Source of the DNA: a virus
IMG/VR virus record: IMGVR_UViG_3300031227_000531
Location: 1 to 20,870 of that record
Length of the DNA: 20,870 nucleotides
Strand: one strand, 5' to 3'
In this document: positions 4,047-19,361 of the stretch, piece after piece
How the letters are laid out: every line of letters begins with the position of its first letter
How positions within the stretch are numbered: position 1 is the first letter of the stretch
Notes under the pieces: model-generated
What the model was told of the DNA's origin: nothing
Seen by the model: the letters and a program-made list of their open reading frames with translations, nothing else
The model's database searches: none
Made by a program: the position numbers and the translations under genes

Positions 4047-4538
4047 ATGGCAACCGGAAGTCTCGGAACAGTAAAAACAGCAGGCTCGGAAGATTCTCAG
4101 CTTATCGCCAGTGATGGTTGTAAGCAGAAACCGATTCAGCTCAAGGCAAACGTAGGCGCATTGTCTCGTGGGACAGTGATGGCCATGAACACCACGACTT
4201 TTTTGTGGGAACAGCACGACCAAGACGGCTCAACCGGCGCTAATGTCGCTCGATGTATTCTGGCTGTTGATGTTGCAGACAGCACCGCAGCGCAGGAGTC
4301 CATTGGTTTTTTCATCGGCAAATACCGGCTTGATGATCTCATTTTCCAGACCGATATTACCCGCATAGAAACTGCTCAAGCAATCAGCGAGCTTGCGGAT
4401 GTTGGTATCGAAATTGATGAGTCTTATATCGGGACCGTGACCAGCACCACAACCAGTTCAACTACCTCAACTACAACGAGTACAAGTTCCACAAGCTCAA
4501 CCACGAGTTCTACCACGACTACCACAAGCGGCGGTTGA
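4047..4538 (+). CDS. Lambda gpD-like head decoration protein with Thr/Ser C-terminal tail
   Basis: The 163-residue product should trimerise on the outside of the expanded capsid and stabilise it. Residues 1-125 resemble the lambda D/HDPD fold: an initial flexible strand, GALSRGTVMAMN (residues 37-48), ARCILAVDV (68-76) and a glycine-containing strand at 85-101, then a short helix with QAISELADVGIEID. Residues 130-160 are almost exclusively Thr and Ser, ending SGG and a triple stop (TGA TAA TAA). An AGGAAGG site at 4031-4037 precedes the ATG. The gene sits directly before the capsid gene, the same order as lambda D and E. The Thr/Ser tail is not part of the known family and would project from the capsid surface. 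A very similar domain plus tract recurs in the gene at 17859. The decoration call rests on position and pattern; it is probable rather than certain. Confidence 0.78.
   Translation: MATGSLGTVKTAGSEDSQLIASDGCKQKPIQLKANVGALSRGTVMAMNTTTFLWEQHDQDGSTGANVARCILAVDVADSTAAQESIGFFIGKYRLDDLIFQTDITRIETAQAISELADVGIEIDESYIGTVTSTTTSSTTSTTTSTSSTSSTTSSTTTTTSGG
4434..4526 (+). repeat. Thr/Ser low-complexity tract, decoration protein
   Basis: Codons 130-160 of the decoration protein are Thr and Ser apart from a single Val at position 131. The DNA is a degenerate run of ACN and AGY/TCN codons with mixed third positions, so it looks selected at protein level rather than being a simple DNA microsatellite. Confidence 0.95.
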
Positions 4539-4575
4539 TAATAAGTTTTTACCCCAGATCAAGGAGGTCTGACAA

Positions 4576-5583
4576 ATGGATAATCTTTTCAAAATCCGAA
4601 CACTTACAACCGCTGTCAACATGATGCAAGATCCATCCATGCTCATGTATCAGCGGTATTTTGCAGGCAAGGCACGCGGGGAAGTTAGCGACCGGCTCGC
4701 ATTTGACATTATAACCGGCTCCCAGCGGATACTTGAAAATATGAGTATTTACGCAGAAGCCAAAGTCACCGCCAAAACTGGGCGCAGCACAGTAACAATG
4801 ACGGCGCCCCGGCTGGCAACCAAGCGGCATATTGCCGCTGCAGAGTTGAACGCCATGCGTGGTTTCGGTCAACAGGCTTCTGTTGAAATGCTTTCCGGTC
4901 GTGTTGCCCGCGAGCAGAAAGACATGATGAACGAGCATTTCCGCACATTGGAGTTCTGGTCAGCCAATGCCATGAAGGGTAGAATTTATGACAGTGATTG
5001 CAGTACATTGCTTGTCGATTACCTTGTGGACAGCGGCCATCGTGTAACGCTTACCGGCACTGACCTTTTCACCGATTCATCCAGTGACCCGATTGAAATG
5101 CTGCGCGCGCATAAGCGCAAAATTGAGCAGGATTCAGGCGGCGCTATTACCAGCTTTGATTTTATCGCTGGCTATGAGGTCATTGATGCCCTTCTGAAAA
5201 ACACCCGCGTGCTGGCCCTGTTGCAGTACACCGGCAACAAGGCAATCCGCATTGCAACCGTTGGCGACATTGAAACGCTTGTCGGCTGTAAAATTATCGA
5301 GTACTCCGGCAGTTACCTTGATGCCAATGGTGCTCGTAAATATTACATTGACGCTGATCAGTATGTGCTTGTCGGCAATTCGCCCGATCTTACCGACCTT
5401 CCGTATGCCCCGATTATTGACTTTGAGGCACCCGGCGGTATTGGTAATCCGGGCAGTGGGCAAATGTGGTTTTCAAAGTCATGGGATGAAAAAGACCCGT
5501 CCGGTAAATGGATTAAGGTCGAAGGCCGCCCGCTTCCGGTGCTACAGCGTCCCGGTAATGTAATGATCGTGACGGCGGTATAA
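4576..5583 (+). CDS. Major capsid protein (lambda gpE family, HK97 fold)
   Basis: The 335-residue product is the main shell subunit. Length and layout match the lambda E family: an N-terminal arm, a long helix region (residues 80-125, AAELNAMRGFGQQASVEML) and a beta-rich C-terminal half. The ending is characteristic: MWFSKSWDEKDPSGKWIKV followed by GRPLPVLQRPGNVMIVTAV, matching the conserved 'KSWeeeDPs..wl...RPLPvp..pd....' close of gpE-like capsid proteins. The ribosome binding site AAGGAGGT at 4561-4568 is the strongest in the window and lies seven bases before the ATG, fitting the highest-expressed gene. The gene follows decoration protein and protease-scaffold, as expected. The family call is confident. 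Confidence 0.9.
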   Translation: MDNLFKIRTLTTAVNMMQDPSMLMYQRYFAGKARGEVSDRLAFDIITGSQRILENMSIYAEAKVTAKTGRSTVTMTAPRLATKRHIAAAELNAMRGFGQQASVEMLSGRVAREQKDMMNEHFRTLEFWSANAMKGRIYDSDCSTLLVDYLVDSGHRVTLTGTDLFTDSSSDPIEMLRAHKRKIEQDSGGAITSFDFIAGYEVIDALLKNTRVLALLQYTGNKAIRIATVGDIETLVGCKIIEYSGSYLDANGARKYYIDADQYVLVGNSPDLTDLPYAPIIDFEAPGGIGNPGSGQMWFSKSWDEKDPSGKWIKVEGRPLPVLQRPGNVMIVTAV

Positions 5584-5585
5584 CA

Positions 5586-5990
5586 ATGGCGCTCGCGTCC
5601 ATATTGCAGGTTCGGCAGCTTGGTGGGCTCCCTGACGACACCAAGCTTGCTGACTCTAAAATAGAACCTCATCTCAGTGCGGCAGCGCGGGAGTTACGCC
5701 GTGAAATAGGCGAGTACGCAACACGCACTGGCGATGAGAAAGAAGATTGCATTGACGCGGAGGCTTCTTTGGCTTTGGCGTATTTAATGCCCGTCCTGAA
5801 TGTCATTTGCCCGGAAGGGCTTAACACGGTGCAAAAGGAATACGGCGATCTTGGCTTGAATTTCTACGATGCCAATGATCAAAAGATTCTGATTAAGATG
5901 TGGACAGACAGGGCGGCAAAGGCAATCGCAAGAATCAAAAACGAGCAGCCCCCGGCGGGTGTGCCGACAATCGGATGGAATGTACTTTGA
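5586..5990 (+). CDS. Head-tail connector (adaptor) protein candidate
   Basis: A 134-residue, mostly helical product located directly behind the capsid gene, where head-tail adaptor proteins (HK97 gp6, SPP1 gp15 type) are found. It contains an early helical segment with SKIEPHLSAAARELRREIG (residues 24-42), a helical hairpin-type middle with EASLALAYLMPVLN, and a basic C-terminal helix WTDRAAKAIARIK, in line with the small all-helical adaptor fold. No strong ribosome binding site is present; the ATG lies three bases after the capsid stop, so translation is probably coupled. I recognise the position and architecture more than a specific family signature, so this is a context-supported inference. 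It could be a different neck protein. Confidence 0.6.
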   Translation: MALASILQVRQLGGLPDDTKLADSKIEPHLSAAARELRREIGEYATRTGDEKEDCIDAEASLALAYLMPVLNVICPEGLNTVQKEYGDLGLNFYDANDQKILIKMWTDRAAKAIARIKNEQPPAGVPTIGWNVL

Positions 5991-5991
5991 T

Positions 5992-6339
5992 ATGCACGAT
6001 TCAGCAATAGAAGAATACATCCGGATCCAGACAACATCGGTATATCCTGACGTTGAAGCTGCTCAGATTTATGTCAAGTTCCCGTCTGCTGTTTTTGGCG
6101 TATCGCGCAGCAGGCGCGGGGATTCAATCGGTAGCGAAAAACTTTCTGTTTTGGTTATAATTGTCAACACGACAAAACTTGACCGGAAGTTGTTTATCGA
6201 AAAGTTCCCGCGCAAAAATATAACGGTTGACAGTGTTGTTATGGAACAGAACTTCATTAACACCGAGCAGCAAGACTACATTGAAATAATCAAAAACAAG
6301 GGTTTAATTTTTACCCTACAGTTTAACTACGACATTTAA
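5992..6339 (+). CDS. Tail completion / terminator protein candidate
   Basis: A 115-residue product from the ATG at 5992, which comes one base after the stop of the preceding gene. Alternatives are ATG 5980 or GTG 5959, both overlapping the previous gene; GGATGG at 5973-5978 could serve either ATG, so the start is uncertain. The sequence opens with an acidic helix (HDSAIEEYIRIQ) and continues as alternating strands (LSVLVIIVNTTKLDRKLFIEKF; ending GLIFTLQFNYDI), an alpha/beta outline shared by tail terminator proteins of the lambda gpU kind. Its place between connector and tail tube is the usual one for the tail completion protein. No family-specific motif was recognised, so the role is inferred from context. 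Confidence 0.5.
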   Translation: MHDSAIEEYIRIQTTSVYPDVEAAQIYVKFPSAVFGVSRSRRGDSIGSEKLSVLVIIVNTTKLDRKLFIEKFPRKNITVDSVVMEQNFINTEQQDYIEIIKNKGLIFTLQFNYDI

Positions 6340-6351
6340 CAGGAGGCTAAA

Positions 6352-6945
6352 ATGGCCGATCAATATGCAGCACCAAACCCCACGAATAACCTTACCATCC
6401 CAAAAGGTATTCTCTACATTGCGCCGTGGGCCGGGGATGTAGCGCCGGTAGACGGAGATTTTGTCGATGTCGGCAATGCAAGTTCCGTTACGGTTGAACC
6501 GACCCGCGAAAAGTTGGAACATTTTTCTTCACGTTCCGGCACGAAAACCAAAGACCGGGTTGCAGAAATTTCATCCGGGTATAACGTCAATTTCACGCTT
6601 GATGAAATCAGCCTGGCGAACATGGCTATGTTTCTGAGAGCAACCATTTCGGAAAGTGAGTTTCTGCTTGCTAATGAAAACATCGGTGGTTTTTATGCAC
6701 TGCGCTTCATAGCTGACAACAGTTATGGCCGAGCATACAATATTAACTGCTGGAAAGTTGAAGTCGCACCTGAAGGATCAATCAATCTGATCGGTGACGA
6801 ATGGATGAGCATGGGTTTCTCAGGCGAAGGTCTAGACGATACCGCGAACCATCCAACATCGCGCTTTTTCTCCATGCGCTTCACTGACGCGGTTGCTGGT
6901 ACTACTACAACCTCAAGCACAACCACAACCACGACAGCGCCGTAG
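6352..6945 (+). CDS. Tail tube (major tail) protein with Thr-rich C-terminus
   Basis: The 197-residue product should polymerise as hexameric rings to build the tail tube. Its N-terminal half shows the typical pattern of siphovirus tube proteins: KGILYIAPWAG (residues 18-28), VDVGNASSVTVEPTREKLEHFSSRSGTKTKD (38-68 taken in pieces: a 'lGN....' turn, then 'E.l.HfSs.sG...KD'), then a TLDEISLANMAMFL helix around 82-95. A beta-rich second half follows. Residues 184-195 are TTTTSSTTTTTT-like and the protein ends Ala-Pro. AGGAGG at 6341-6346 precedes the ATG. The neighbours, completion protein upstream and (after an interruption) tail chaperones and tape measure downstream, agree with this role. The Thr/Ser tail recalls those of the decoration and appendage proteins. 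Confidence 0.85.
   Translation: MADQYAAPNPTNNLTIPKGILYIAPWAGDVAPVDGDFVDVGNASSVTVEPTREKLEHFSSRSGTKTKDRVAEISSGYNVNFTLDEISLANMAMFLRATISESEFLLANENIGGFYALRFIADNSYGRAYNINCWKVEVAPEGSINLIGDEWMSMGFSGEGLDDTANHPTSRFFSMRFTDAVAGTTTTSSTTTTTTAP
6901..6936 (+). repeat. Thr/Ser low-complexity tract, tail tube protein
   Basis: Codons 184-195 encode only Thr and Ser, followed by Ala-Pro and the stop. The ending TTTTTTAP is nearly the same as the end of the tract in the gene at 17859 (TTTTAPPPW), where the protein continues into a further domain. Confidence 0.92.
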
Positions 6946-6970
6946 TGGTTTGATTGTACATGCTATACAC

Positions 6971-7009
6971 AAAGCCCCTGCCCTTTTATGTGGGGTGGGG
7001 GCTTTTTTT
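6971..7009 (+). terminator. Intrinsic (rho-independent) terminator after the tail tube gene
   Basis: Bases 6971-6983 (AAAGCCCCTGCCC) can pair with 6993-7005 (GGGTGGGGGCTTT) as a 13-bp stem that includes two G-U pairs, around a loop of nine bases, followed by a T run through 7009. It lies 26 bases after the tube stop codon. The T run touches the AGGAGG ribosome binding site of the next gene, so no promoter fits between terminator and that gene. Confidence 0.85.
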
Positions 7010-7022
7010 AGGAGGTTTTGAA

Positions 7023-7334
7023 ATGAAGTTTTTGCTCACAGTATTTATGCTTATTTGCATGATCAGTTTTTCGGTAGCTCCGGCAGTAGCTCAGAATTTT
7101 ACATCCCAGCAAATTGATAATTTCGTACATGCATATCAAACCGTTCTTGCTTATGACAGCTCGGACAATGTTGAGTATATCGGCAAAGCATCGCCGGGCA
7201 GTGCAACCTCGGCAGCCGTTTGGCAGATTCAGAAGATTACATATTCAGGCAGTAACGCAATGACAATAAAATATGCGGGTGGTTCGTCTGCATTCTCAGG
7301 CGTTTGGGATGACCGCGCCACGTACACTTATTAG
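7023..7334 (+). CDS. Small signal-peptide protein with a phage-type C-terminal motif
   Basis: The 103-residue product starts at the ATG at 7023 behind AGGAGG (7011-7015 region); an in-frame codon further upstream would place the terminator inside the gene and is rejected. Residues 1-23 form a clear Sec signal peptide: a Lys, a long hydrophobic core and an APAVAQ cleavage site. The mature part contains EYIGKASPGSATSAAVWQI and ends with VWDDRATYTY. By memory this pattern ('YIGkA.pG...s.a.WqI.ki', then 'WddRas..Y') occurs in small virion or hypothetical proteins of other tailed phages, usually without an export signal. Function unknown. It is the first of four successive genes with signal peptides, immediately behind a terminator. 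The signal peptide is confident; the relation to virion proteins is moderate. Confidence 0.75.
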   Translation: MKFLLTVFMLICMISFSVAPAVAQNFTSQQIDNFVHAYQTVLAYDSSDNVEYIGKASPGSATSAAVWQIQKITYSGSNAMTIKYAGGSSAFSGVWDDRATYTY

Positions 7335-7346
7335 GAGGCACGCAAC

Positions 7347-8663
7347 ATGAAACGGTACATTAAAATATTATTCCTTGCGGCCTTGCTACCGTTTCTTGTG
7401 GCGGGTACTTACTACGAACCTCTTATAGGGCAGACAATGACAACGCCTCCCGGCATGTCGACCGTTGCGGAATCAGAAGCGTATACCGATGCTGAAATTG
7501 CGGCTTTGAGCGGAACGTATGCAGAGCTAGGCGAGGATGCCAACTTTGGGCAGTGTACTTGTGAAGATGGTGCAACCATCGGCGGAACACAAAGCATCAT
7601 TACGTTTGACCCACACGGTGAGTCAATATCCAATGAAGACGATGACATCATTTTATTCCAATCCGCAGACGGTACAGCAGATCAATCAATACAATTTAAT
7701 CTTGATCCTGCCGATGCTGTCAATCCGGTAATATCATCAGAGACATCAGATACTATTTTTATACAAGATAGACTTAAAATAGGCCCCCGTAATTTTGACG
7801 GCACAGAGGATGAAACATCTTTTGCACTATCATCTTTATTCGTTCCATCTACTGAAACACCATCCGATAAAATTATTACAGCAATAAACTCAACAACGAT
7901 ATTAGGCGGTTCATCTTTTCTTGCTAATTCAGAATCGAAGGGCATTGTTATTGGCACAAATTCCGTGACTACATTTGCTGGTCTTGGCCCTGGCCCTGCT
8001 GGTAGTGCGCTTATAGATTTGACTGGAGCTGAAATTTTTGGTGGGGATGGTTGGGCTGCTAATTCTACTGGCTTTGGAGATGACGAAGCAAAGCTGTTTT
8101 GCAAAGACGCTACAGGTGCGATAATCCAAAGTGCAGCCGATACGGTGGATATATCTGGTAACGCTTTAACGCTTAAACTTTTGGCTTCAGAGTCAGCATC
8201 AGATGGTAGCGAAACGGTTTTGTCTGTTGAAGAGCCTACACTTGGCGCAACGAATTACCAAGTTGTGCTTGAAGGGCATGGAAGCGGTGCAGGTATTTGG
8301 CTTGATAGCATAACGGGCGCAAGAATAAGCTCACCCGTTGCAAATGTAATCAAGCAGACAGGCGGCAGGATTACAGATACAGTCCGCATTATTGACACCG
8401 CAAGCCCATACACTGTACTTGCAACATCCTATAAAATCTTTTGTGATACAGATGATACTGCGGCTGATGGCGGTGACATTGAGATTGATTTGCCAGCAGG
8501 AATTGACGGCACTGAGTACGTTATTTATAACGTTGGTGCTGGAAACGTAACCATTGACCCGAATGGAACAGAAACAATTGACGGTGGTGCTGCTGGTGTT
8601 GCAAAGGTGTTAGGGTCTGGTGTCTTGACAATAACTTATGAAACGACCGAAGGATGGTGGTAA
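7347..8663 (+). CDS. Fibre-like protein with N-terminal signal peptide
   Basis: The 438-residue product has an N-terminal Sec signal peptide or anchor (residues 1-20: MKRYIK, then a Leu/Ala/Phe core, ending VAG). The remaining sequence is rich in Thr, Ser, Asp and Gly, beta-structured and low in Lys/Arg, like exported or appendage proteins. The last 90 residues resemble the C-terminal domain common in phage fibre proteins: YTVLATSYKIFCDT, DIEIDLPAGIDG, EYVIYNVGAGNVTIDPNG, TETIDGG, closing with LTITYETTEGWW. Middle sections are unrecognised. AGGAGG at 7333-7338 overlaps the previous stop and gives a good start. The next gene's preferred TTG begins directly after the stop. I infer an adhesin or fibre; whether it goes into the virion or is displayed by the host is open. 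Confidence 0.68.
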   Translation: MKRYIKILFLAALLPFLVAGTYYEPLIGQTMTTPPGMSTVAESEAYTDAEIAALSGTYAELGEDANFGQCTCEDGATIGGTQSIITFDPHGESISNEDDDIILFQSADGTADQSIQFNLDPADAVNPVISSETSDTIFIQDRLKIGPRNFDGTEDETSFALSSLFVPSTETPSDKIITAINSTTILGGSSFLANSESKGIVIGTNSVTTFAGLGPGPAGSALIDLTGAEIFGGDGWAANSTGFGDDEAKLFCKDATGAIIQSAADTVDISGNALTLKLLASESASDGSETVLSVEEPTLGATNYQVVLEGHGSGAGIWLDSITGARISSPVANVIKQTGGRITDTVRIIDTASPYTVLATSYKIFCDTDDTAADGGDIEIDLPAGIDGTEYVIYNVGAGNVTIDPNGTETIDGGAAGVAKVLGSGVLTITYETTEGWW

Positions 8664-8664
8664 A

Positions 8665-9630
8665 TTGAAATATCTCAGTATCCTTTTCCTGTTAATTGCC
8701 TGCCCTGTTCATGCTGAGACATTCAAGGTAGTTGTCTATGGCGACACTCACGACACGGTTGCTGGCGCGCCTATTCTGTCAGGCCATAACGATTGGATAA
8801 TATCGCAAGCAGAAGCGTTAAACATTAAGTATGTTTTGCATTTAGGTGATGGTGTTACAGACCCAGCAGACAATGAAATGATTGCAACAGAGATGCAGAG
8901 ATTGGCTACAGCAAACATCCCATATATATTCAGCTTGGGAAACCATGAGTTTGATACCGATGATTCTGCAAGCCCAGCAAGAGCAACGACATCGTTTGAC
9001 ACATATTATCCCGTTGCTGATTTTTCATGGGTTGATGGCAATTTCGATATAATGCAAAACAGCTATGATGTAATTACGGTCGGTGGTGTGGAATATCTAT
9101 TTATGACAATTGCGTACTGCCCCGATGATGATGCGATTGCGTGGGCTGATGGTATCCTTACTGCAAACACTGACAAGCATGTAATCATATCTACACATTA
9201 TTATTTTAGTTCACTTACATCAGAATATTCTAGGGGTACAAATAACGATAATTATACTTGGGCTTGCCAGAACAACGGAAGCGGTGAAGCATTATATCAA
9301 AACGTGTTTATAAATTATCCAAACATCTTAATGATTTTAGCAGGTCATAATTGGAATCCGTATTCAACGTATGTAGACGGTTCAATCATACGGAGAGATG
9401 TTGTTGACGGCGTTACGATCAACCAAATACGGCAAAACTGGCAAGCAGACACCCGTGGCAATTTATACATTAGAATTTACACAATCGACACTGAGGCAGA
9501 CGCTATTCAAGTGCAGTCATATTCACCAAGTACAGATACATATTTACTAAATTCTGAAGATAATTTTTATTTAAACAAAGCTTCAATAGGTTTTGCAAAT
9601 ATCGAATGCGAAGGCATAATAATTCAATGA
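8665..9630 (+). CDS. Secreted calcineurin-like metallophosphoesterase
   Basis: Starting at the TTG at 8665 gives 321 residues with a textbook signal peptide (MKYLSILFLLIACPVHA, then ETF). GGATGG just upstream fits it; the ATG at 8638 lies inside the previous gene and has no ribosome binding site. The catalytic domain shows the two-metal phosphoesterase motifs in order: GDTH (residues 26-29), GDGVTD (61-66), GNHE (92-95), His178 in ISTHYY and GH at 227-228. The last motif reads GHNW, so the second His of the usual GHxH is replaced by Trp. The enzyme would hydrolyse phosphate esters outside the cytoplasm; the substrate is unknown. Phosphorylated surface polymers or phospholipids are possible. 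It is embedded in a run of exported appendage-like proteins, suggesting action at a cell surface. The enzyme family is confident; activity is uncertain because of the altered ligand. Confidence 0.83.
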   Translation: MKYLSILFLLIACPVHAETFKVVVYGDTHDTVAGAPILSGHNDWIISQAEALNIKYVLHLGDGVTDPADNEMIATEMQRLATANIPYIFSLGNHEFDTDDSASPARATTSFDTYYPVADFSWVDGNFDIMQNSYDVITVGGVEYLFMTIAYCPDDDAIAWADGILTANTDKHVIISTHYYFSSLTSEYSRGTNNDNYTWACQNNGSGEALYQNVFINYPNILMILAGHNWNPYSTYVDGSIIRRDVVDGVTINQIRQNWQADTRGNLYIRIYTIDTEADAIQVQSYSPSTDTYLLNSEDNFYLNKASIGFANIECEGIIIQ

Positions 9631-9640
9631 GGGTTCGACT

Positions 9641-10906
9641 ATGAAAAAGATATTAATAGCAATAGCAATATTACTTTTCGCTTCTACTGCATACGGACAA
9701 GCTCGGTTCGACAAGGTGCATACATACTCTGGCGACTTCGGAGGAGATATTTGGTATGTGAGTGACGTTAATGGTCTTGATACTAATTCAGGCACAACGT
9801 CAAAGGTTCCATTTAAAACTATTGCTGTTGGGCTTGCTGCTTGTTCTGCCGGTGATGCTGTTTCTGTAACCGCTGGCACATATACAGAAAATGTGGTGAT
9901 GAGTACTGCGTCAGTAGAGCTATGGTGTGAGATTGGTACAATTATTGACGGTGACGGAACCTGCTTAACTGTAAGCGGTGGCACAATTAAAGTTTTAGGC
10001 CCGTTAAAGATTACGCCAGCAGCTGACCAGATTGGTGTTCTGGTAAGCACCGCTGATGGGAACGAATTTCGGAATGTTCGTGTCAAAGGTGTTGCATCTA
10101 CTACGGGATGGGATTTTAACATCGGTGGATCAAGGCTTTTTGACTGTACTGCTTCTGGTATAAAGGCAGGCGGTAAAGGGTTTGACATAGGTGGAAGCGG
10201 AACAAAATTAACTGCCTGTTATGCTGCTGGGACAACTACAAGCTACGGTTTTTTTGCTGATGGAACTATTACAGGTGGTTTCTTGTCTGATTGTATTTCA
10301 GTGGGCAATCAAACTGCTGGATATTATCTTGATGATGTTTCAGGCATGACCGTTGTTGATTGTTCAAGCGGTGCAGGGGATGGAAAATGGCGTGACATTG
10401 ACTCCGCAAATGTGTGGAGTGGATTCAGTTATCCTGAAACTAAATTTAAAGATATTGTGATAGGTACTGATGGGGAAACAACCGGCAACAGTCCCTATAA
10501 CCTGTTTAAAATAACTGGCTCCGTTGAGATTCAAGAAATTACAGGGCATGTCAATGTTATATTAACCGGCGCTAACGATGATGTATATTTCAATATACAT
10601 AATGATGATGGTGCAACTTCTAATACACTTGTTACTGCTACAACCGGAACAGATATGCCGGTTGCTGTTGGTAGTGTTTGCATGAAAGGCGGTATTATAG
10701 GTGCAGCCCTGAATGTTTTTAATGCGGCTGGCGTTGTGCTTGGATTAAGCGCCAACTCTGACAAAAAAGCATTTGGCGTACTCGCTCCGGCAGCGGGGAA
10801 TACTTATATGCAATATGTTTCATCTAATGACACATCAGGAACAATGCACTTCCATGTTATCTGGCGACCATTAACTGAAGATGGTTTCCTTGAGGTTGCC
10901 GAGTAA
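9641..10906 (+). CDS. Secreted right-handed beta-helix (pectate-lyase-like / tailspike-like) protein
   Basis: The 421-residue product starts with a Sec signal peptide (MKKILIAIAILLFASTAYGQA). Residues 34-75 read like the entry of a parallel beta-helix protein: DIWYVSDVNGLDTNSGT, then PFKTIAVGL, GDAVSVTAGTYTENVVM. About 200 residues of short repetitive beta-turns follow (for example GGSRLFDCTASGI, GGSGTKLTACYAAG, GGFLSDCISVG), as in polysaccharide-binding or -degrading spikes. The last 120 residues form a different beta-rich domain. No catalytic residues can be assigned. GAGGG at 9629-9633 overlaps the previous stop, seven bases before the ATG. In phages such helices usually form tailspikes that bind or cut surface polysaccharide, but those do not need export signals. 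It could be a released or surface-displayed depolymerase. Confidence 0.75.
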   Translation: MKKILIAIAILLFASTAYGQARFDKVHTYSGDFGGDIWYVSDVNGLDTNSGTTSKVPFKTIAVGLAACSAGDAVSVTAGTYTENVVMSTASVELWCEIGTIIDGDGTCLTVSGGTIKVLGPLKITPAADQIGVLVSTADGNEFRNVRVKGVASTTGWDFNIGGSRLFDCTASGIKAGGKGFDIGGSGTKLTACYAAGTTTSYGFFADGTITGGFLSDCISVGNQTAGYYLDDVSGMTVVDCSSGAGDGKWRDIDSANVWSGFSYPETKFKDIVIGTDGETTGNSPYNLFKITGSVEIQEITGHVNVILTGANDDVYFNIHNDDGATSNTLVTATTGTDMPVAVGSVCMKGGIIGAALNVFNAAGVVLGLSANSDKKAFGVLAPAAGNTYMQYVSSNDTSGTMHFHVIWRPLTEDGFLEVAE

Positions 10907-10909
10907 ATT

Positions 10910-11314
10910 ATGTTTAAATTATCCGACAGGTCAATGATGAATGCTGATGGAGTAGATCCCCGGCTTGTGCAGATTGCCTGTCGTGCTATTCAGATTACAC
11001 CTATAGATTTTGGTATTCCTTCATCAGGCGGGTTAAGAACTGTTGCGCAACAGGCTCGATTATTTGCAAACGGGAAATCAAAATGTGACGGCTATCTAAA
11101 AAAGAGTAAACACCAAAGCGGCAGAGCGATTGACTTTTATGCCTATGTTGAAGGCCGGGCAAGCTGGAACAGGCATTACTTGTCATTGATAGCAACAGCA
11201 TTTTTGCAGGCATCATGCGAACTTTGTTTTTATGTGCAGTGGGGTGGCCTTTGGAACGCCTGGCAATATCCTGACGGCTGGAGAGATATGCCACATATTC
11301 AAATTGTTGGTTAA
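10910..11314 (+). CDS. Endolysin, M15-family peptidase (L-Ala-D-Glu or D-Ala-D-Ala type)
   Basis: The 134-residue product is a small globular peptidoglycan peptidase, the size of the T5-type endolysin. The zinc-site motifs are visible: GGLRT at 40-44, SKHQSGRAIDFYA at 66-78 with ligands His68 and Asp75, and DMPHIQI at 126-132 with His129 as third ligand. A WGGLW segment (111-115) precedes the last motif, as in the family. There is no signal peptide or cell-wall-binding domain, so a holin would be required and a Gram-negative-type envelope is suggested. The gene lies three bases behind the beta-helix gene with only a weak ribosome binding site. A single-TM protein, holin candidate, follows. 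Family assignment is confident; exact bond specificity is not. Confidence 0.88.
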   Translation: MFKLSDRSMMNADGVDPRLVQIACRAIQITPIDFGIPSSGGLRTVAQQARLFANGKSKCDGYLKKSKHQSGRAIDFYAYVEGRASWNRHYLSLIATAFLQASCELCFYVQWGGLWNAWQYPDGWRDMPHIQIVG

Positions 11315-11338
11315 CCTTTAAAAAAGCGAATCGCGGAC

Positions 11339-11665: not shown

Positions 11666-11666
11666 C

Positions 11667-11825
11667 GTGATCATAGAAAATCTGCTTTCTCAGATAATTG
11701 ATTTATTGAAAAGCGCAACGTCAATATCTATCGAACTTGAAAACATAACCTTCGATCCAAAGACCCTGCAGGGCAACATCGGCAAAGCACGCATTTCAAC
11801 CGGGGGCGGTAAAAATGAAGCCTAA
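11667..11825 (+). CDS. Small 52-residue protein in the lysis cassette
   Basis: A short gene starting with GTG at 11667, behind a strong AGGAGGGG site (11655-11662) that lies in the end of the preceding gene. The protein begins MIIENLLSQIIDLLKSATSI, an amphipathic helix, continues with SIELENITFDPKTLQG and ends GGGKNEA. It overlaps the next gene by 11 bases. The ribosome binding site, the filling of the otherwise empty 149-base gap and the overlap make it likely to be a real gene. Function unknown; no TM segment or lipobox is visible. Confidence 0.6.
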   Translation: MIIENLLSQIIDLLKSATSISIELENITFDPKTLQGNIGKARISTGGGKNEA

Positions 11826-12264: not shown

Positions 12265-12268
12265 GACC

Positions 12269-12610
12269 ATGAAAAAAGAAAAGAAGATCACGCTCAACGA
12301 AAAAGAAATCACTATAACTGAAATGTCTGTTAAGGAAATCTCTATCGCGCTTGAAGACATCGCCGCTGATGGTAAAGCCGTTATGGAAGGCAAGAAACCC
12401 CTTGCGACCATTGACCTGCTGTTCGGGTCTGAAGCATCTCAGATTGTTATCTGCAAATGTACGGGGCTTACCGCCGAAGAACTGGAAAATGATTATTCCC
12501 CAACCGATGTTCGCAAGCTGATTGATGAGGTGAAGTCTTTGAACCTGTTTTTTTTCGAGATGCTGGCAAAACTGGTAAAGGTTCAAGCAAGCTTACCCCT
12601 GACAAAATAA
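12269..12610 (+). CDS. Tail assembly chaperone, short form (lambda gpG-like)
   Basis: The 113-residue product is the 0-frame tail assembly chaperone, which in lambda-like phages coats the tape measure protein during tail assembly and is not in the virion. It starts with a charged strand region (KITLNEKEITITEMSVKEI), typical of this family, and is followed by an acidic helical domain. A run of eight T at 12548-12555 includes a U UUU UUC slippery heptamer in the correct frame, from which the -1 frame is open for another 85 codons. Position directly before the tape measure gene supports the role. GAGAGGG at 12253-12259 precedes the ATG. The assignment rests on the frameshift arrangement and context. 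Confidence 0.78.
   Translation: MKKEKKITLNEKEITITEMSVKEISIALEDIAADGKAVMEGKKPLATIDLLFGSEASQIVICKCTGLTAEELENDYSPTDVRKLIDEVKSLNLFFFEMLAKLVKVQASLPLTK
12550..12556 (+). promoter_or_regulatory. Programmed -1 ribosomal frameshift site (U UUU UUC)
   Basis: The heptamer T TTT TTC is in the correct register of the 0 frame, inside a run of eight T. A weak hairpin, GGTAA at 12574-12578 with TTACC at 12593-12597, may stimulate. RNA polymerase slippage on the T run is an alternative with the same product. Confidence 0.72.
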
Positions 12611-12813
12611 AAGACTTGGCCTGTTCGCTTATTGAGGCCGGGCACACTAATGCGATGGAATACGGATGGACTTTTTTTATAATAGCTTTAGACGGGCATG
12701 CAAAAAGGGAAAAAGCGTCTACTTTAAGATCAGCCATAGCCGTCCGGGTGGGCAGCCATGCAGACAAAAAAGAATGGAAAAAGTTTACTAAGAAAATGAC
12801 ACCAAAGGATTGA
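12556..12813 (+). CDS. Tail assembly chaperone extension in -1 frame (lambda gpT-like; made as G-T fusion)
   Basis: This segment has no start of its own: its only start-like codon (TTG 12616) lacks a ribosome binding site. It is continuously open from the slippery site at 12550-12556 to the TGA at 12811. A -1 shift would join 96 residues of the short form to 85 residues encoded here, beginning RDAGKTGKGSSKLTPDKIKD and ending in a basic helix KKEWKKFTKKMTPKD, giving a 181-residue protein. In lambda, the G-T fusion recruits tail tube subunits to the tape measure. The tape measure gene starts eight bases after the stop. Frameshift efficiency is unknown. Confidence 0.75.
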   Translation, partial: RDAGKTGKGSSKLTPDKIKDLACSLIEAGHTNAMEYGWTFFIIALDGHAKREKASTLRSAIAVRVGSHADKKEWKKFTKKMTPKD

Positions 12814-12820
12814 GCGAAAC

Positions 12821-15800
12821 ATGGCTACTGATAAAGAACTAAAATATAATATCAAAGTCAATACCATTGGTGATGATGCAATAAAAAAACTCGGTAAAGA
12901 CATTGCCGGGCTTTCAACCGCCACTAAAGCCTTCGGGGTTGCTCAGGCCAAGCAATCAAAAGCCGGGCTTGCTGGTACTAAGAAAATCAATACTGAAATC
13001 GCCAAAACTCAAACCTTATATGCAAAGCTCAAAACGGTATCGGTTGCCGCAATAGGGAAAATGGCAACCGCACAGGGCAAGTTAATTGCAAAAGCCAATT
13101 TACTTACGGCAGCCCTGCAGCGCTCGCAGAATGGCATGACATTCGGCCAACAGTTAGTCGGCGCAAAAGAAGCCGTACTTGCAATGGCCGGGCTTGTTTA
13201 TGGTGTTGTAAATGCCTATAAAGCTTTTGCTGATTTTCAACAGCGGCTTGGCGAAGTTAATACCCTTTTAAATCTCACTACTGAGGGGATACAGTCGCTT
13301 GGATCTGAAATTGTTTCACTTAGTAGAATTATCCCGCAGTCAGCCGCAGAATTAACAGCAGCCGAATACGATATAATTTCAGCAGGTGTCGCGCTCAAGG
13401 ATTCTGTTTATGTCCTTGAACTTTCAGCAAAGGCCGCCGTTGCTGGTGTTACAGATACAAAGACCGCTGTTGTTGCCGGTGTTGGTGCTATTAACGCATA
13501 CGGCGCGAGCATGAGTGAATTGGGCGGGTATTATGACATTCTTTTTCAAACTGTAAAACTCGGTGTAACTACTTTTCCCGAATTGTCGTCTGCTATTGGT
13601 AATGTTCTACCTATCGCAAGGGCGGCAGGTGTTGACTTTCAAACCGTTGGTGCTGCAATAGCGTCAATGACAAAGGCCGGGATTAAAACCCCAATAGCTG
13701 TCAATGCTTTGCGCGGTGCAATTAATGCCCTATCAGCGCCGACCAAAGAAGCAAAAGAAAAGATGGATGCCCTGGGCATAACATGGCAGGGGCTCATTCC
13801 TACCCTTGAAGCAATCGCCGAGCAAGGTCTTGCGGTTGACCAGATGCGCGAATTAATCCCGGACGTTGAGGCTCGCGTTGCGGTTTTAAGTTTATCACAA
13901 AATATAGACGGTTTAAAAGATTCACTTAACAGTATGAGTAAAGCAACAGGCGCAACAAAAGCCGCCTATGACATCATGGCTGAAACGCCTGAAAATCAGG
14001 TTAAGCTTTTAGGTAATGAAATCACAGCATTGAAGATTCAGCTTGGTGGCCTTGTAGCTGAAGGGCTTATACCGGCAACAGGAAAACTACGAGAACTGGC
14101 AGCCATAATGCGCGAGTTGCCTGCATCAACAAAGGTTATAGTTGGACTTTTTGCAGCAGCATCAGCCGGTGCTTTTTTGTGGGCTGCTGGTTTAGGTAAG
14201 GTGATAATTGCTTTTGCTGGTTTGTTGTTGCCAGTCATAAAACTATCAGCCGCAATGATGACATTTTCGGGGACGCTTGCATCCATGGCAATCGCAAGCA
14301 CGACCGCCGCTGTTGCAATGACAGTGTTGCTCGGACTTCTTGCCGCCGCTGGTATAGCTGCAATCGGGTATGCTGCATATAAATTCATTGAAGCGCGGCA
14401 GGCGGCTAAAGACCTAGCACAGGTTATTTCCGATTTGAACATCCAAGTTGATGACCTTGTAAAAAGTTTCAAAGGATTCAAGGACGTAAAACTTCCAAGT
14501 AATATTACCGGCAGCACAGTTCAAGAAATTATTGTTTTTAGAGATGAGCTTGCAAAAGCGCGGGCGTACTGGACAGCACTTGAGGCACAATTAAATGTAC
14601 AGGCAAGCCAAACAGGGCTATTCGGCACGCTGACCGATGATGCAAAAGCGGCCGTAAGAGAATTACCCGCTGTTTCTCAACGGCTAAGGGAAGTGCAGGC
14701 GGCGATTCAGTCTTTGCAGCAGGGGCAGTCAGAGGGAATCGTTGCAAATACGATTACAGTTGCAATCCCCGACATAGGGGAAGTACAAAAATATATTGAT
14801 GATGAAAAATCTTTGCTGAGTGATCGTATTTCTGAAATAGAGGAACTGGCAGTCGAAGAACAATCGGTCGGCACAGAAACCGCTCAAGCTATTTATGACG
14901 CCCGCGCAGAATCAGCAGGCAAGACTATGGAGCTAGTTGCGCTCGGTCTTGATTATGCTTTAGAAGCGTATGGTGCTGAGTCTAAAGAATTTACATCAAT
15001 GATGGCGCAGGCAACAGAAACGCAGACAGAATTTGAAGCACTGAGGAATGAAGCACTGGCAACATACGAAACGGCGCTGGAAAAGTTACGGACAAGTGAA
15101 CAAAAATGGGCGACATTTATTGAAGGGTTAAAACAAGAACTTGAAGACGTTAATAGCTCTCTTGATTCTAATGAAGAACAACGCGAGTCAGCAAGGGCAA
15201 GAGCCGAAGAGTTAAGATATGCGGCAAGGGAAGAAGCTGAAAAGAACACAGAAGAATCAAATAAAGCTGCGATGGAAATGCTTAGAGCGTCTGTTCGCAT
15301 AGAAAAAGAGCATTCCGGCGAACTTAAAGACGAGTCCGGCAAGATACTTGAAGATGAAAAAAAGGCGCAAAAATTAGCAGCCGATGGGATTGAAGCAAGT
15401 ATCATAGCCGCCGAAGATATAGGCGAAGAGTACTCAAGGGCACAGGCTAAAATAGCCGCAGAAGCTAAGCAAAATTATGACGACGCTAACAAAGCTATCG
15501 AAACATCTAAGTCAAAAATAGCGGATGTAAACACCGAAGCCAATAAGCTCAACGAAGAAAAAGAATTAAAAGTCACGTTGTCGCCCACCTATGAAAAATT
15601 AATTGAGCGATTTAAGGATTTAACAAAAGCAGAAACAAAAACAATTACAATACAGACTTTAGAAACGCACGCAACGGGCGGCATAGCTGGCAGTATGTTC
15701 ACGCGCAAGGCTGGCAAAATCCCCGGCGCTGGTACTACTGACGATGTTCCCGCAATGCTTATGCGGGGTGAGTATGTCATTCGGAAATCGGCGGTTGACC

Positions 15801-17476
15801 ATTTCGGGCAGGGCTTTCTTGACGGCATAAACAATATGATTTACAGCCCCGGCGTGTTGCCGAAATTCGCGGTGGGTGGCTATGTTGATTTGCCGCTTGA
15901 TAGAAAAATAGAACGGGCAGAAAAAACCATACGAGAATTACAGCTACGCTTATTGTCTGTCTCAGCATTTGAGCCCGAGATTGCACAGCGGTCTATTTCT
16001 TTAATGCCCCAGGGTTTAAATTTTGACGGTCTCAATAGAGACAATCCAGAAGGCGCGCTGCAAACAATGACCGATGCAACCAGCAGGCTTTCTGCATTTA
16101 AGGCAGTAACGAATGGAGAGCTTGCGAGTGGCGTTACCGCTGCAATGGGTCGCGGTGATTGGGATGTTGCTGAAATATTAGAAACAGAGCGAGACGCAAT
16201 CAAGCGTCTTATCCGTGACATATACGACACAATCAGAGATTTAACAAAAGACTTCCGGCGCATAATGGCAATAGCCCGGACAGAAGAAAGTGAACTCAGA
16301 AGGGATTTAAAAACAGAGCTAAGAACAATCAAAGCTGAGTTAAAAGAAAAAGAACGCGAAGAACAAATGCGGCAGATAGATATAATTGATAATGTTGCCC
16401 GCATGCAGAAAAGTGATGAAAATGAATATGATCAAACAGGAATGAGCAAGAATACTGTTGAAAGTGCATTTAGAGGTGATACGCCTCCTGAAGGTTTGGA
16501 GGAAATGCCGTCTGCTAAAAAAATCCCGTATGAAAGTGAATATAGGGTTGTCAAAACCTTAGATAGTACTATTTATTATTACACTGCAAGTTCTTCTAAG
16601 GGCAGCATTGGAAAGCGGCAAGGGGACATAGCCGGATACGTCCAAAGGGTTAACGGATGGGAGGTTGAACGCGCGGGATACATACCAGCAGGCAATCAAT
16701 CAGGCAACACAATAACGGAAACAGATTACGGTGTTTTTTATAATCCCGATGTTACTGATATAGGGCGGCAAGAATTTAAGGATTCAAGAAACACAGTCAA
16801 GATAGCGCAGAAAGCCGCCCGCAGAGAAAACATGCAAGCGCAGGATTTATTTAATTATGAAAATGCGTATATTGAGAACGAACGCAGAGAGGGTGTTGAT
16901 GATATAAAAATAGAAGCCGCGCCCGCTGTTAATGATTATGCGTCTGAGTTGTCATTGCTCAAACAGGAATTAATAAATGAAGCGCTTGTTTCAAAATACG
17001 AATTAAGTCAGGACATAAAAAAGGCAGAAGAAGACCGCGAAGACTTGCTTGACGAATACGAAATGGAACGCTTGAAATGGATTGAAGCAGACGCAGCGCT
17101 CCGGGCTGGTAATAGCAGCAGCCAACAAACGACATCAACCAGCTACTTTGCAACAGGCGGCAAGGTTACGGGGCCTGAAGGCACAGACAAGGTGCCTGCC
17201 ATGCTGACAAACGGTGAATTTGTGATGCAAAAGAAAGCCGTTAACAGTATCGGGCTTGGTTTTCTCAATCAGTTGAACAACCTTAAAATGCCGGACTTTG
17301 GCGGTGTTAAGGGGTATGCCGATGGTGGTGTTGTTGCCGCCGGTGCCGAACCCGCCGGGCCGCCACTTGGCACAATCAATATTAAGGTAGGGGAAAGCAC
17401 ACTGCCTGCTCATGTAGACAAGAATATGGCGAGACAGTTTATCCGCGAAATGAAACTTGCAGGAATGACGGTATGA
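12821..17476 (+). CDS. Tail tape measure protein (TP901-type core)
   Basis: At 1551 residues this is the largest gene; its length fixes tail length. Residues about 130-420 match the TP901-type core (AFADFQQRLGEVNTLL; ELTAAEYDIISAGV; PELSSAIGNVLPIARAAGVD; ALRGAINALSAPTKEAKEKM; GLIPTLEAIAEQGL). Residues about 436-525 contain several hydrophobic helices (for example VGLFAAASAGAFLWAAGL and AMTVLLGLLAAAGIAAIGYA), thought to reach the host membrane at DNA entry. Residues 650-930 and about 1110-1440 are coiled coil, rich in Glu, Lys and Ala. Two copies of a Gly-rich module with DDVPAMLMRGEYV/TDKVPAMLTNGEFV occur at 951-1023 and 1444-1505. There is no visible peptidase domain. At about 1.5 angstrom per residue, the rule used for other siphoviruses, the tail would be about 230 nm. 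The stop overlaps the next start (ATGA). Confidence 0.92.
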   Translation: MATDKELKYNIKVNTIGDDAIKKLGKDIAGLSTATKAFGVAQAKQSKAGLAGTKKINTEIAKTQTLYAKLKTVSVAAIGKMATAQGKLIAKANLLTAALQRSQNGMTFGQQLVGAKEAVLAMAGLVYGVVNAYKAFADFQQRLGEVNTLLNLTTEGIQSLGSEIVSLSRIIPQSAAELTAAEYDIISAGVALKDSVYVLELSAKAAVAGVTDTKTAVVAGVGAINAYGASMSELGGYYDILFQTVKLGVTTFPELSSAIGNVLPIARAAGVDFQTVGAAIASMTKAGIKTPIAVNALRGAINALSAPTKEAKEKMDALGITWQGLIPTLEAIAEQGLAVDQMRELIPDVEARVAVLSLSQNIDGLKDSLNSMSKATGATKAAYDIMAETPENQVKLLGNEITALKIQLGGLVAEGLIPATGKLRELAAIMRELPASTKVIVGLFAAASAGAFLWAAGLGKVIIAFAGLLLPVIKLSAAMMTFSGTLASMAIASTTAAVAMTVLLGLLAAAGIAAIGYAAYKFIEARQAAKDLAQVISDLNIQVDDLVKSFKGFKDVKLPSNITGSTVQEIIVFRDELAKARAYWTALEAQLNVQASQTGLFGTLTDDAKAAVRELPAVSQRLREVQAAIQSLQQGQSEGIVANTITVAIPDIGEVQKYIDDEKSLLSDRISEIEELAVEEQSVGTETAQAIYDARAESAGKTMELVALGLDYALEAYGAESKEFTSMMAQATETQTEFEALRNEALATYETALEKLRTSEQKWATFIEGLKQELEDVNSSLDSNEEQRESARARAEELRYAAREEAEKNTEESNKAAMEMLRASVRIEKEHSGELKDESGKILEDEKKAQKLAADGIEASIIAAEDIGEEYSRAQAKIAAEAKQNYDDANKAIETSKSKIADVNTEANKLNEEKELKVTLSPTYEKLIERFKDLTKAETKTITIQTLETHATGGIAGSMFTRKAGKIPGAGTTDDVPAMLMRGEYVIRKSAVDHFGQGFLDGINNMIYSPGVLPKFAVGGYVDLPLDRKIERAEKTIRELQLRLLSVSAFEPEIAQRSISLMPQGLNFDGLNRDNPEGALQTMTDATSRLSAFKAVTNGELASGVTAAMGRGDWDVAEILETERDAIKRLIRDIYDTIRDLTKDFRRIMAIARTEESELRRDLKTELRTIKAELKEKEREEQMRQIDIIDNVARMQKSDENEYDQTGMSKNTVESAFRGDTPPEGLEEMPSAKKIPYESEYRVVKTLDSTIYYYTASSSKGSIGKRQGDIAGYVQRVNGWEVERAGYIPAGNQSGNTITETDYGVFYNPDVTDIGRQEFKDSRNTVKIAQKAARRENMQAQDLFNYENAYIENERREGVDDIKIEAAPAVNDYASELSLLKQELINEALVSKYELSQDIKKAEEDREDLLDEYEMERLKWIEADAALRAGNSSSQQTTSTSYFATGGKVTGPEGTDKVPAMLTNGEFVMQKKAVNSIGLGFLNQLNNLKMPDFGGVKGYADGGVVAAGAEPAGPPLGTINIKVGESTLPAHVDKNMARQFIREMKLAGMTV
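15671..15889 (+). repeat. Tape measure Gly-rich module, copy 1
   Basis: Residues 951-1023 begin ATGGIAG, contain GAGTTDDVPAMLMRGEYVI and GFLDGINNM and end AVGGYVD. They align with copy 2 at 17150-17335 over most of the length. Confidence 0.8.
17150..17335 (+). repeat. Tape measure Gly-rich module, copy 2
   Basis: Residues 1444-1505 begin ATGGKVTG, contain GTDKVPAMLTNGEFVM and GFLNQLNNLK and end YADGGVV. Similarity to copy 1 is at protein level; the DNA has diverged, so the duplication is not recent. Confidence 0.8.
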
Positions 17477-17859
17477 TTACACTTGACGATTTAGAACTCC
17501 CGTATGAGCTTTTATGGTCTGACGAATTTGCGTGGACAGGCGTTTCAGCATCGGCACAATACAGTTTGCAAGGTGTCCAGCATGTTCAAAAATCAAGTTC
17601 AGCAAGCGGGCAAGGGCGGCCAATCACATTAATAAGCCCGGACGCATGGATCACCCGCGCTGACATAGAAACCCTGTATGCAAAATCAGCAGACGCAGAA
17701 ACAGAAAGTATGTTATTAACACTACATGACGGCAGGACTTTCAATGTATTTTTTAGACAATGGGAACCACCTGTTATTGAAGCAACCCCGATAATGAAAA
17801 TGGCAAACCCTGAAACCAATGAAGAATACATCGTGTCAATAAAGCTGGTAACGATATAA
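17473..17859 (+). CDS. Tail protein following the tape measure (tail tip candidate)
   Basis: A 128-residue product overlapping the tape measure stop (ATGA) and the next start (TAATG), so translation is tightly coupled. Conserved-looking parts are GRPITLISPDAWITRADIETL (central), LTLHDGRTFNVFFRQW and PPVIEATPI, then a final VSIKLVTI strand. I recall this pattern ('gRPItL......itradvdaL', then 'dGr.f.V.Frh..pp') from small tail proteins right behind tape measure genes in phages of proteobacteria, where they are annotated only as tail protein. The beta-rich outline would suit a distal tail or tube-tip initiator. The specific role is inferred from position. Confidence 0.6.
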   Translation: MITLDDLELPYELLWSDEFAWTGVSASAQYSLQGVQHVQKSSSASGQGRPITLISPDAWITRADIETLYAKSADAETESMLLTLHDGRTFNVFFRQWEPPVIEATPIMKMANPETNEEYIVSIKLVTI

Positions 17860-19361
17860 TGTTTAATCAAGCAAAATACGGGCCGGATTATACTCAAGTT
17901 GGTTATTGGAAACCGGGCAGGCAGTACAGCGTTAACGATCTTGTGCGCCCTGCTGCCGATAATGGCCTTGCGTATAAGGCTTTAAACGATGGATGGACAA
18001 GCAGCGATGGCGCCCCGACATGGCCGACTGGGCCCGGCGAAACTGTTGCAGAATTTACCGGCCTTCAATGGGTTGCTGTATTTGACCGGACTTATAAAAT
18101 CGCAATAGGCGGCATGTGCTGTACTCATGATGGAACAATAGCTGCAGGGGCCGGGGTGCTTCGGGTCGGTCAGATATTAGCTATTAATAGCGCGACTTAT
18201 AAATGGTGCGGGTGGAGCAGGTCAAGCGATAGTGAAGAAGACATTGCACGCGGTATCCTTGCCCATAATGTTGACGCAACAGACAGCGAACAGCGGGCTA
18301 CAATTTATGGCGCTGGCGAATACGATTATTCTGCTATTTACTGGCAGCTAGGTCATACTGGTAAGTTTAGAGCGTACGCTCTTGACCAGCTTTCAAAGCG
18401 CGGAATACTTATAAACAAATCAATAATAACAACCGTAACTACAACGACATCATCAACAACATCGACCACAAGCACTACCAGTTCAAGCTCGACCACAAGT
18501 TCGACTAATTCAACGACCAGCACAACCAGCTCGACGAATTCGACAACCAGCACAAGCTCAACTACAAGCAGCACTACTACAACAGCACCGCCGCCTTGGA
18601 CACCGGCTGAGATTGATACAAAATTATGGTTTGATGCCGACGATGCAGACACCTTGACCATGACCAGCGACGAAGTATCAAAGTGGGCTGACAAATCCGG
18701 CAACGATCACGATCTTGAAGCAACCGATTCAACATACCGGGGCAGGCCAAATGTATCAACAAAAGACGCTCTCAATATTTTAACTTTTGACGGTGTGCGT
18801 GATTGCATGTCAATGCTGAATGAATCACCGTTTGCGCTTGGCGCTGTTGGATTTTTCATGGTGGTAAAATATATAATCCAAACACCGGAAATCCATCGTT
18901 GGCACATATCGGGTTGCAGTAGTGAAGCTCTGGGAGCAGATCGTAACATTTTTGAGCTGTATCTTTCCGGCAGTTCCGATAAAAAGAATGTAGTCAAAGC
19001 CGGGGCCGGGTCAGGCGGTGCTGGTTATGCCGGTGGTGCATTATATGATGGCGCTTGGCATGTTGTCGGCGGGTCGCATATTGGATCAGCTGTTAGTAGC
19101 TGTTTAGATTCAGTTGAATATGGTACGGATACTTATGCAGATACAGGAACGGTAAAGCATCTTGGCGTTGCTTGCAATTTAGACCCTGCAACCGGAGACC
19201 CGATCAATGATTACCGCACCCAATCTGAAGTTGCTGAAATTGTCGTAGTCGATAGCTTGACCGACAAGGCAAAAATTGAGGGGTATCTTGCATGGAAGTG
19301 GGGGCTTGAGGACAACTTACCAGAAGGCCACACATATAAAAACGAACGACCGGAGTTATAA
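17859..19361 (+). CDS. Multi-domain appendage protein: CBM-like, decoration-like, Thr/Ser stalk, LamG-like
   Basis: The 500-residue product is modular. Residues 10-72 resemble a chitin-binding-type (CBM5/12-like) module: YWKPGRQYSVNDLVR, LAYKALNDG, PTWPTGPGETV, LQWVAV. Residues 99-163 align without gaps to residues 37-101 of the decoration protein (17 identities in 65 by my count). Residues 191-243 are a Thr/Ser tract with a few Asn, followed by APPPW. Residues 247-500 look like a concanavalin/LamG-like sandwich: LWFDADDADTLTM, VSKWADKSGNDHD, LTFDGVRDCM, closing with KIEGYLAWKWGL and LPEGHTYK. The start (TAATG) overlaps the preceding stop. Two carbohydrate-binding-type ends joined by a stalk suggest a receptor- or surface-binding appendage. 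Attachment to the capsid via the decoration-like domain is as plausible as attachment to the tail. Domains are called by eye. Confidence 0.7.
   Translation: MFNQAKYGPDYTQVGYWKPGRQYSVNDLVRPAADNGLAYKALNDGWTSSDGAPTWPTGPGETVAEFTGLQWVAVFDRTYKIAIGGMCCTHDGTIAAGAGVLRVGQILAINSATYKWCGWSRSSDSEEDIARGILAHNVDATDSEQRATIYGAGEYDYSAIYWQLGHTGKFRAYALDQLSKRGILINKSIITTVTTTTSSTTSTTSTTSSSSTTSSTNSTTSTTSSTNSTTSTSSTTSSTTTTAPPPWTPAEIDTKLWFDADDADTLTMTSDEVSKWADKSGNDHDLEATDSTYRGRPNVSTKDALNILTFDGVRDCMSMLNESPFALGAVGFFMVVKYIIQTPEIHRWHISGCSSEALGADRNIFELYLSGSSDKKNVVKAGAGSGGAGYAGGALYDGAWHVVGGSHIGSAVSSCLDSVEYGTDTYADTGTVKHLGVACNLDPATGDPINDYRTQSEVAEIVVVDSLTDKAKIEGYLAWKWGLEDNLPEGHTYKNERPEL
18429..18587 (+). repeat. Thr/Ser low-complexity stalk, appendage protein
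   Basis: Codons 191-243 encode Thr and Ser with one Val and two Asn. Two degenerate 30-base direct repeats lie at 18498-18527 and 18528-18557 (each AG(T/C)TCGAC then AATTC), indicating growth by tandem duplication. Confidence 0.95.

Follow-up and report, generated by a model that had tools for sequence, protein, structure and literature searches.

Why should three virion proteins encoded on one stretch of viral DNA carry runs made almost entirely of threonine and serine, and what could such runs do on a phage particle? The stretch examined here (the window) is a single IMG/VR virus record, IMGVR_UViG_3300031227_000531, of 20,870 bases; it is a fragment of a phage genome, and its genes look like a head-and-tail module from a long-tailed phage. 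The tracts lie in a head decoration protein, in the tail tube protein, and in the product of the open reading frame (ORF) at 17859-19361. We consider it likely that they are disordered, mucin-like virion stalks that are O-glycosylated by a phage-encoded gene island; what we infer is the modification itself, the sequence in which the enzymes act, and the purpose of the glycan.

A preliminary description of the window had reported Thr/Ser tracts in these three virion proteins and in no other gene, and this was confirmed by a six-frame scan and by shuffling. In the decoration protein (ORF 4047-4538), the tract consists of 30 pure Thr/Ser residues, not 31 as first counted, or of 32 residues if the preceding TV is included. 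The tube protein (ORF 6352-6945) has a tract of 12 residues, and amino acids 191-242 of ORF 17859-19361 comprise pure runs of 23, 9, and 15 residues, interrupted only by V and N and followed by APPPW. Elsewhere in the window, no Thr/Ser run of at least 7 residues was found in the six frames, and the longest run in any other gene was 5. When each protein was shuffled 20,000 times, the maxima were 13 (decoration protein), 8 (tube protein), and 10 (ORF 17859-19361) residues, well short of the observed runs of 30, 12, and 23.

The codons of the tracts were mixed, with all four Thr codons and Ser codons from both blocks in use. Selection was assessed by comparing the window with G001 (IMGVR_UViG_3300035698_009643, 44.8 kb), a record that is collinear with it over most genes and whose capsid protein is 89% identical. 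The decoration tracts of the two differed by ~12 synonymous changes and a single amino-acid change (between T and S). No amino-acid change was observed in the tube tract, and 6 were observed in the tract of ORF 17859-19361, 3 of them between T and S. The ratio of nonsynonymous to synonymous differences (pN/pS) of the decoration tract was 0.11, equal to that of the folded domain of the same protein. Since synonymous differences far outnumbered amino-acid changes, and only ~20% of the possible nonsynonymous single changes in the decoration tract would preserve Thr or Ser, the Thr/Ser identity is under purifying selection and is maintained at the protein level, as the varied third codon positions had initially suggested. 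Chance composition as the origin of the tracts was ruled out by the shuffles together with the selection on codons. The tracts could also be functionless by-products of repeat expansion (slippage) at the DNA level, which would fit the variable tract length among relatives, the nearly pure Thr runs such as one of ~60 residues in locus L155, and a weak tandem repeat period of 12-27 nt within the tracts of the window. Such an origin is very improbable given the mixed codons, the pattern of substitution in the decoration tract, the occurrence of the window tracts in frame and in virion proteins only, and their link to an enzyme family described below.

The tracts are thus real, but they are not three unrelated cases. 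The third protein had been taken for an appendage protein in which a stalk precedes a LamG-like end. A stalk followed by a C-terminal domain is indeed present, and the protein also contains a lambda gpD-type (HDPD) domain, which scored 45.2 bits compared with 36.3 bits in ORF 4047-4538 (curated cut-off of PF02924, 29.1). Because this domain stands directly before the tract, ORF 17859-19361 is best read as a gpD-type decoration-protein paralogue whose stalk bears an extra LamG-like end, and the proposal that the decoration protein has the same stalk minus the terminal domain is thereby supported. Independent occurrence on three proteins was rejected, as two of the three share the gpD domain; the three cases therefore represent two lineages, gpD-type proteins and the tube. 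The match to the virion structural protein family phrog_10356 covers amino acids 150-498 of the paralogue, and its C-terminal domain, which also matches cyanophage virion proteins, is probably sugar-binding. In a Pfam scan of this ORF, no match was found for the LamG-like part, and the homologous domain in locus L290 matched Laminin_G_3 with an E value of 8.9e-6 and 26.4 bits, just under the curated cut-off of 27.6. The structure model of the whole protein was poor: the gpD domain was mostly confident, the tract disordered, and the LamG-like part of low confidence. The gene sits in the tail module, so placement on the head or on the tail is possible.

We gathered relatives with the tube alignment, after cutting the tract out of it, and scored tracts of at least 7 residues in the tube and at least 8 in head proteins. 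Both tracts were present in 25 of the related loci, the head tract alone in 2, the tube tract alone in none, and neither in 38. Furthermore, phages with more Ser in the tube tract also tended to have more Ser in the head tract (rho 0.58, p = 0.001, n = 28; rho 0.47 without two poly-Ser phages). These results bear out the earlier proposal that head and tail proteins carry the same kind of stalk, and random, independent loss of tracts among relatives, the outcome named beforehand as refuting it, was not seen. In the clade around the window, nearly all complete tubes ended in a Thr/Ser tract or in at least five threonines; outside the clade, no tube had a tract, and the fetched flanks contained no pure run of at least 9 in any other gene. 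The tract-bearing head proteins were non-homologous between phages and comprised gpD-type (HDPD) decoration proteins, small basic proteins of 56-117 amino acids, an Ad1 head-tail adaptor, a phrog_673-like protein, and HK97-like or Phage_cap_E major capsid proteins (that of L163 being assigned as HK97-like by reading of its sequence). The occurrence of tracts on non-homologous head proteins is a stronger sign of repeated selection than their co-occurrence on the tube tree. A scan for the pattern TTTTAP-stop, which is biased toward the motif, served for seed finding only, and a first scan for close relatives with the capsid protein alone as the query gave two loci. Among isolate phages, there were no close relatives of the decoration protein or of the N-terminal part of ORF 17859-19361, and matches to the tube, the capsid protein, the LamG-like domain, and a fourth tract protein (see below) were weak.

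Several relatives showed further variation in their tails. In L172 and L174, the tube and the small head protein both carry poly-serine, not threonine, interrupted by Arg or Cys, so that composition switches jointly. In L145 and L146 (7804-8732), a second ORF, which likewise encodes a Thr/Ser tail, begins in a different frame within the gene of a Thr/Ser-tailed adaptor. The gpD-type decoration ORF of the tract-free relatives L193 and L194 (7343-8080) has a Pro/Glu/Ala-rich tail ending in ...QPPADQPPAEQPAA, which is possibly a different low-complexity display tail.

G001 extends beyond the window and carries the same three tracts as well as a fourth, which lies immediately beyond the point corresponding to window base 20870. 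The fourth protein (L007:11336-12424) is virion-like and has a 31-residue Thr/Ser tail ending in TTTTTAP; its relatives in Vibrio and Shewanella phages are labelled only as hypothetical, and a tailed homologue is present in L029. Beyond it and three intervening genes, downstream of the tail genes, starts an island encoding a GT4-like glycosyltransferase, GT2-like transferases, a hexapeptide transferase, two methyltransferases, a radical-SAM-like protein (so labelled from sequence motifs only), and a further GT2. No obvious membrane segments were found in the island proteins of G001.

The preliminary description had proposed looking for glycosyltransferase genes elsewhere in the phage genome; such genes were found in relatives, and the statistical link between them and the tracts holds whichever of the two is taken as the starting point. 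Among tube records of at least 20 kb, G001 included, the GT4-like enzyme (43-51% identity) was present in 7 of 17 from the tract clade and in 0 of 22 from outside it (p = 0.0013). With records of at least 35 kb and duplicates removed, the counts were 7/9 and 0/14. The tubes of three of the seven enzyme-bearing clade records (G004, G006, and G010) end in no more than five or six threonines. Glycosyltransferase genes occurred in G001 and in 8 of the 17 tract-bearing records, and PF00535 alone failed to separate tract-bearing (5/17) from tract-free (4/22) records. In the reverse direction, a search for the enzyme family gave 74 viral loci. Species genomes (84,980) yielded only 3 loci, the contigs belonging to metagenome-assembled genomes of Deltaproteobacteria, Desulfobacteraceae, and unclassified Proteobacteria, and isolate phages (50,697 records) yielded none; the family is virus-specific. 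A pure Thr/Ser run of at least 10 residues was present in the flanks of 58 of the 77 enzyme loci, compared with 0 of 38 loci of tract-free tubes that were similar in length (p = 1.7e-16), and in 36/47 compared with 0/38 after the enzymes were clustered at 80% identity. In whole records, at least 5 matches to the tract pattern were found in 41 of 47 enzyme-bearing records and in 0 of 24 controls (3/24 if isolated matches are counted). The island genes are conserved around the enzyme, whose gene is preceded in 24 of 64 loci, at a distance of at most 700 nt, by a tract-bearing gene. Capsid typing of the 47 enzyme-bearing records with phrog_29 and PF05065 gave at least two capsid types, with ~30 records left untyped. 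Close upstream of the GT4 gene in L279, L282, L283, L289, and L291 are ORFs of 57-70 amino acids that consist mostly of a Thr/Ser tract; these are possible dedicated acceptors or display peptides.

The model of the GT4-family enzyme had a predicted local distance difference test (pLDDT) score of 94.9 and a GT-B fold like that of MshA, BshA, TarM, and SdgB. Foldseek matched it to BshA with an E value of 3e-13, and VIA matched it to 7mi0 and MshA with a Z score of 17; the match to SdgB had a Z score of 14.8, a root-mean-square deviation of 16, and 10% identity. The C-terminal domain has the E-x7-E motif of retaining GT4 glycosyltransferases, in which E319 and E327 were invariant in 8 and in 52 sequences, and a search of PDB sequences with the enzyme profile gave GT4 matches that were only marginal. 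SdgB glycosylates the Ser-Asp repeats of bacterial adhesins; a low-complexity Ser/Thr acceptor is therefore plausible for the phage enzyme.

Two other accounts of the tracts bear on these associations. The tracts may be unmodified, flexible, protease-resistant spacers or brushes, with the island acting on the host envelope or on phage DNA and merely residing in the same phages. Thr/Ser linkers do commonly serve as spacers in carbohydrate-active proteins of bacteria (PMC6821194), DNA or the host serotype can be the target of phage glycosyltransferases (PMC12619734), and no transferase was found in some tract-bearing records. By contrast, the terminal tracts of the decoration and tube proteins connect nothing, the association of tracts with one enzyme family is strong in both directions, and the island proteins do not have the membrane segments expected of an envelope-modifying system; in addition, no DNA-hypermodification gene was noticed in G001, although no systematic search was made. 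We therefore regard this account as unlikely. Glycosylation of the tracts by a general O-glycosylation machinery of the host, with the island making another glycan, would agree with the absence of a transferase from the window itself, but it is a virus-specific enzyme family that tracks the tracts, and virions are assembled in the cytoplasm, whereas many bacterial general O-glycosylation systems are periplasmic; host enzymes are thus a quite improbable source of the modification.

Several observations weigh against glycosylation of the stalks by the phage island. The window record stops before the island position, so any island of its own phage would lie outside it. The GT-B fold, as modelled, does not fix the acceptor. 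No tract match was found in 6 of the 47 enzyme-bearing records, among them G004 (98 kb), which has only five threonines at the end of its tube, and conversely no transferase was found in the tract-bearing G011 (49 kb). On the tube tree, the co-occurrence of tube and head tracts reflects mostly shared ancestry, with 2-5 independent contrasts (pairs), and the tree-based independent-pair test was underpowered. The tract-enzyme link may be confounded by host or habitat, because the controls differ in lineage and perhaps in host.

With these points taken into account, O-glycosylated stalks remain the explanation that we favour. The stalks would project outward from the head and the tail and would be O-glycosylated in the host cytoplasm by the products of the island. 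A soluble GT4-type glycosyltransferase is the candidate for addition of the first sugar, and the GT2 and further GT4-like transferases, the methyltransferases, and an acetyltransferase may extend and cap the glycan. On the decoration and tube proteins the stalk would be terminal, and on the second decoration-type protein it would carry the LamG-like domain outward. The resulting glycan coat would most likely hydrate and protect the particle and govern its contact with cell surfaces and extracellular polymers. More tentatively, and as a possibility to which we give somewhat less than even weight, the tracts may belong to a widespread modular "virion mucin" system of uncultured phages, probably with Desulfobacterota among their hosts. 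Here, one virus-specific GT4 enzyme and its island would glycosylate Thr/Ser stalks on any outward-facing virion protein (decoration, capsid, tube, adaptor, or tail-tip), giving a whole-particle glycocalyx and a display platform for sugar-binding domains.

The suggestion that this is a virion-surface strategy not described before was overstated. Virion glycosylation is known from mycobacteriophages Che8, Corndog, and Myrna (Freeman et al. 2023, Cell Host Microbe, as cited in PMC12619734, PMC12363180, and PMC11652166); according to the citing articles, phage glycosyltransferases add glycans to the C-termini of capsid and tail-tube subunits (PMC12619734, PMC12363180), with shielding from antibodies as the reported effect. 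Phage-encoded glycosyltransferases are common to both systems, and capsid and tube C-termini, glycosylated in the mycobacteriophages, are predicted acceptors here as well. However, the Che8 capsid protein ends in ...FNKTGS and its tube protein in ...SDGS, with no Thr/Ser tract; the hidden Markov model of the GT4 family gave nothing better than E 0.34 against the three Che8 transferases gp108-110; and a spread over decoration, adaptor, and tail-tip proteins is not reported in the citing literature. The system is known in principle but differs in acceptor, enzyme, and breadth, and is therefore a variant of mycobacteriophage-type glycosylation. The general strategy is thus established; what appears new is that the tracts are mucin-like, that the enzyme belongs to this GT4 family, and that unrelated virion proteins carry the tracts. 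No publication on Thr/Ser-tract phage virion proteins was found in the open-access literature, which does not prove that none exists.

The serine-rich repeat adhesins (GtfA/GtfB) and SD-repeat adhesins (SdgA/SdgB) of Gram-positive bacteria likewise combine a long low-complexity Ser/Thr acceptor with cytoplasmic GT-B enzymes. They differ in being bacterial surface proteins exported by accessory Sec, whereas the phage tracts are on virion proteins; sequence identity between the enzymes is negligible, the phage acceptor is almost pure Thr/Ser, and the phage activity is predicted. Compared with lambda gpD-type decoration proteins, the two window proteins with this domain add a Thr/Ser tail, and the second also has an N-terminal extension, a stalk, a LamG-like domain, and a gene in the tail module. 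Lambda gpV and T4 Hoc display Ig-like domains on the virion. Such domains on tube and decoration proteins (phrog_807 members) are similarly accessory, often carbohydrate-binding, and repeated on head and tail, where they stand at the C-terminus of the tube protein; unlike them, the window tube ends in a disordered tract with no folded domain, and only one protein keeps a domain, the LamG-like one, at the stalk end.

These comparisons point to a different, apparently common and probable form of glycosylation in environmental phages, for which encounters with antibodies are unlikely. Since both the acceptor (the tract) and the enzyme family can be recognised from sequence in such phages, the purpose of phage glycocalyces becomes testable. 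Tract and enzyme together also provide a signature by which glycosylated virions could be picked out of metagenomic sequence, and the enzymes are candidates for the production of mucin-like polymers in bacteria.

The window begins with the end of a terminase-like ORF, followed by a head morphogenesis gene and genes for the portal, protease, decoration protein, and major capsid protein (4576-5583, adjoining the decoration ORF); completion genes, the tail tube gene, a variable stretch, the tape measure gene, and tail-tip genes then follow. The features of the tract-bearing proteins are listed in Table 1.

Table 1. Domains and Thr/Ser tracts of the three tract-bearing virion proteins (window coordinates)
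Feature	Position	Strand	Support
Lambda gpD-type (HDPD) head decoration domain	4047..4436	+	Pfam PF02924 E 7e-9; phrog_49 head decoration E 2.6e-9
Pure Thr/Ser tract, 30 residues, decoration protein C-terminus, then GG-stop	4440..4529	+	
Major tail tube protein, folded part	6352..6900	+	phrog_807 "major tail protein with Ig-like domain" E 4.2e-28
Thr/Ser tract, 12 residues, tube protein C-terminus, then AP-stop	6901..6936	+	Conserved in relatives
Second gpD-type (HDPD) domain, ORF 17859-19361, amino acids 87-183	18117..18407	+	Pfam PF02924 E 1.2e-11; phrog_49 E 1.6e-13
Thr/Ser stalk, 52 residues, 94% T/S, from HDPD domain to C-terminal domain	18429..18584	+	
C-terminal LamG-like domain, known phage virion-protein family	18591..19361	+	phrog_10356 E 1.3e-14

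The variable stretch between the tube and tape measure genes (7347-11314) is not collinear with G001. It encodes a metallophosphoesterase (8638-9630) and a beta-helix/DUF1565 protein (9641-10906), both with a signal-peptide-like start, and an ORF at 10910-11314 with a weak match to M15 peptidases.

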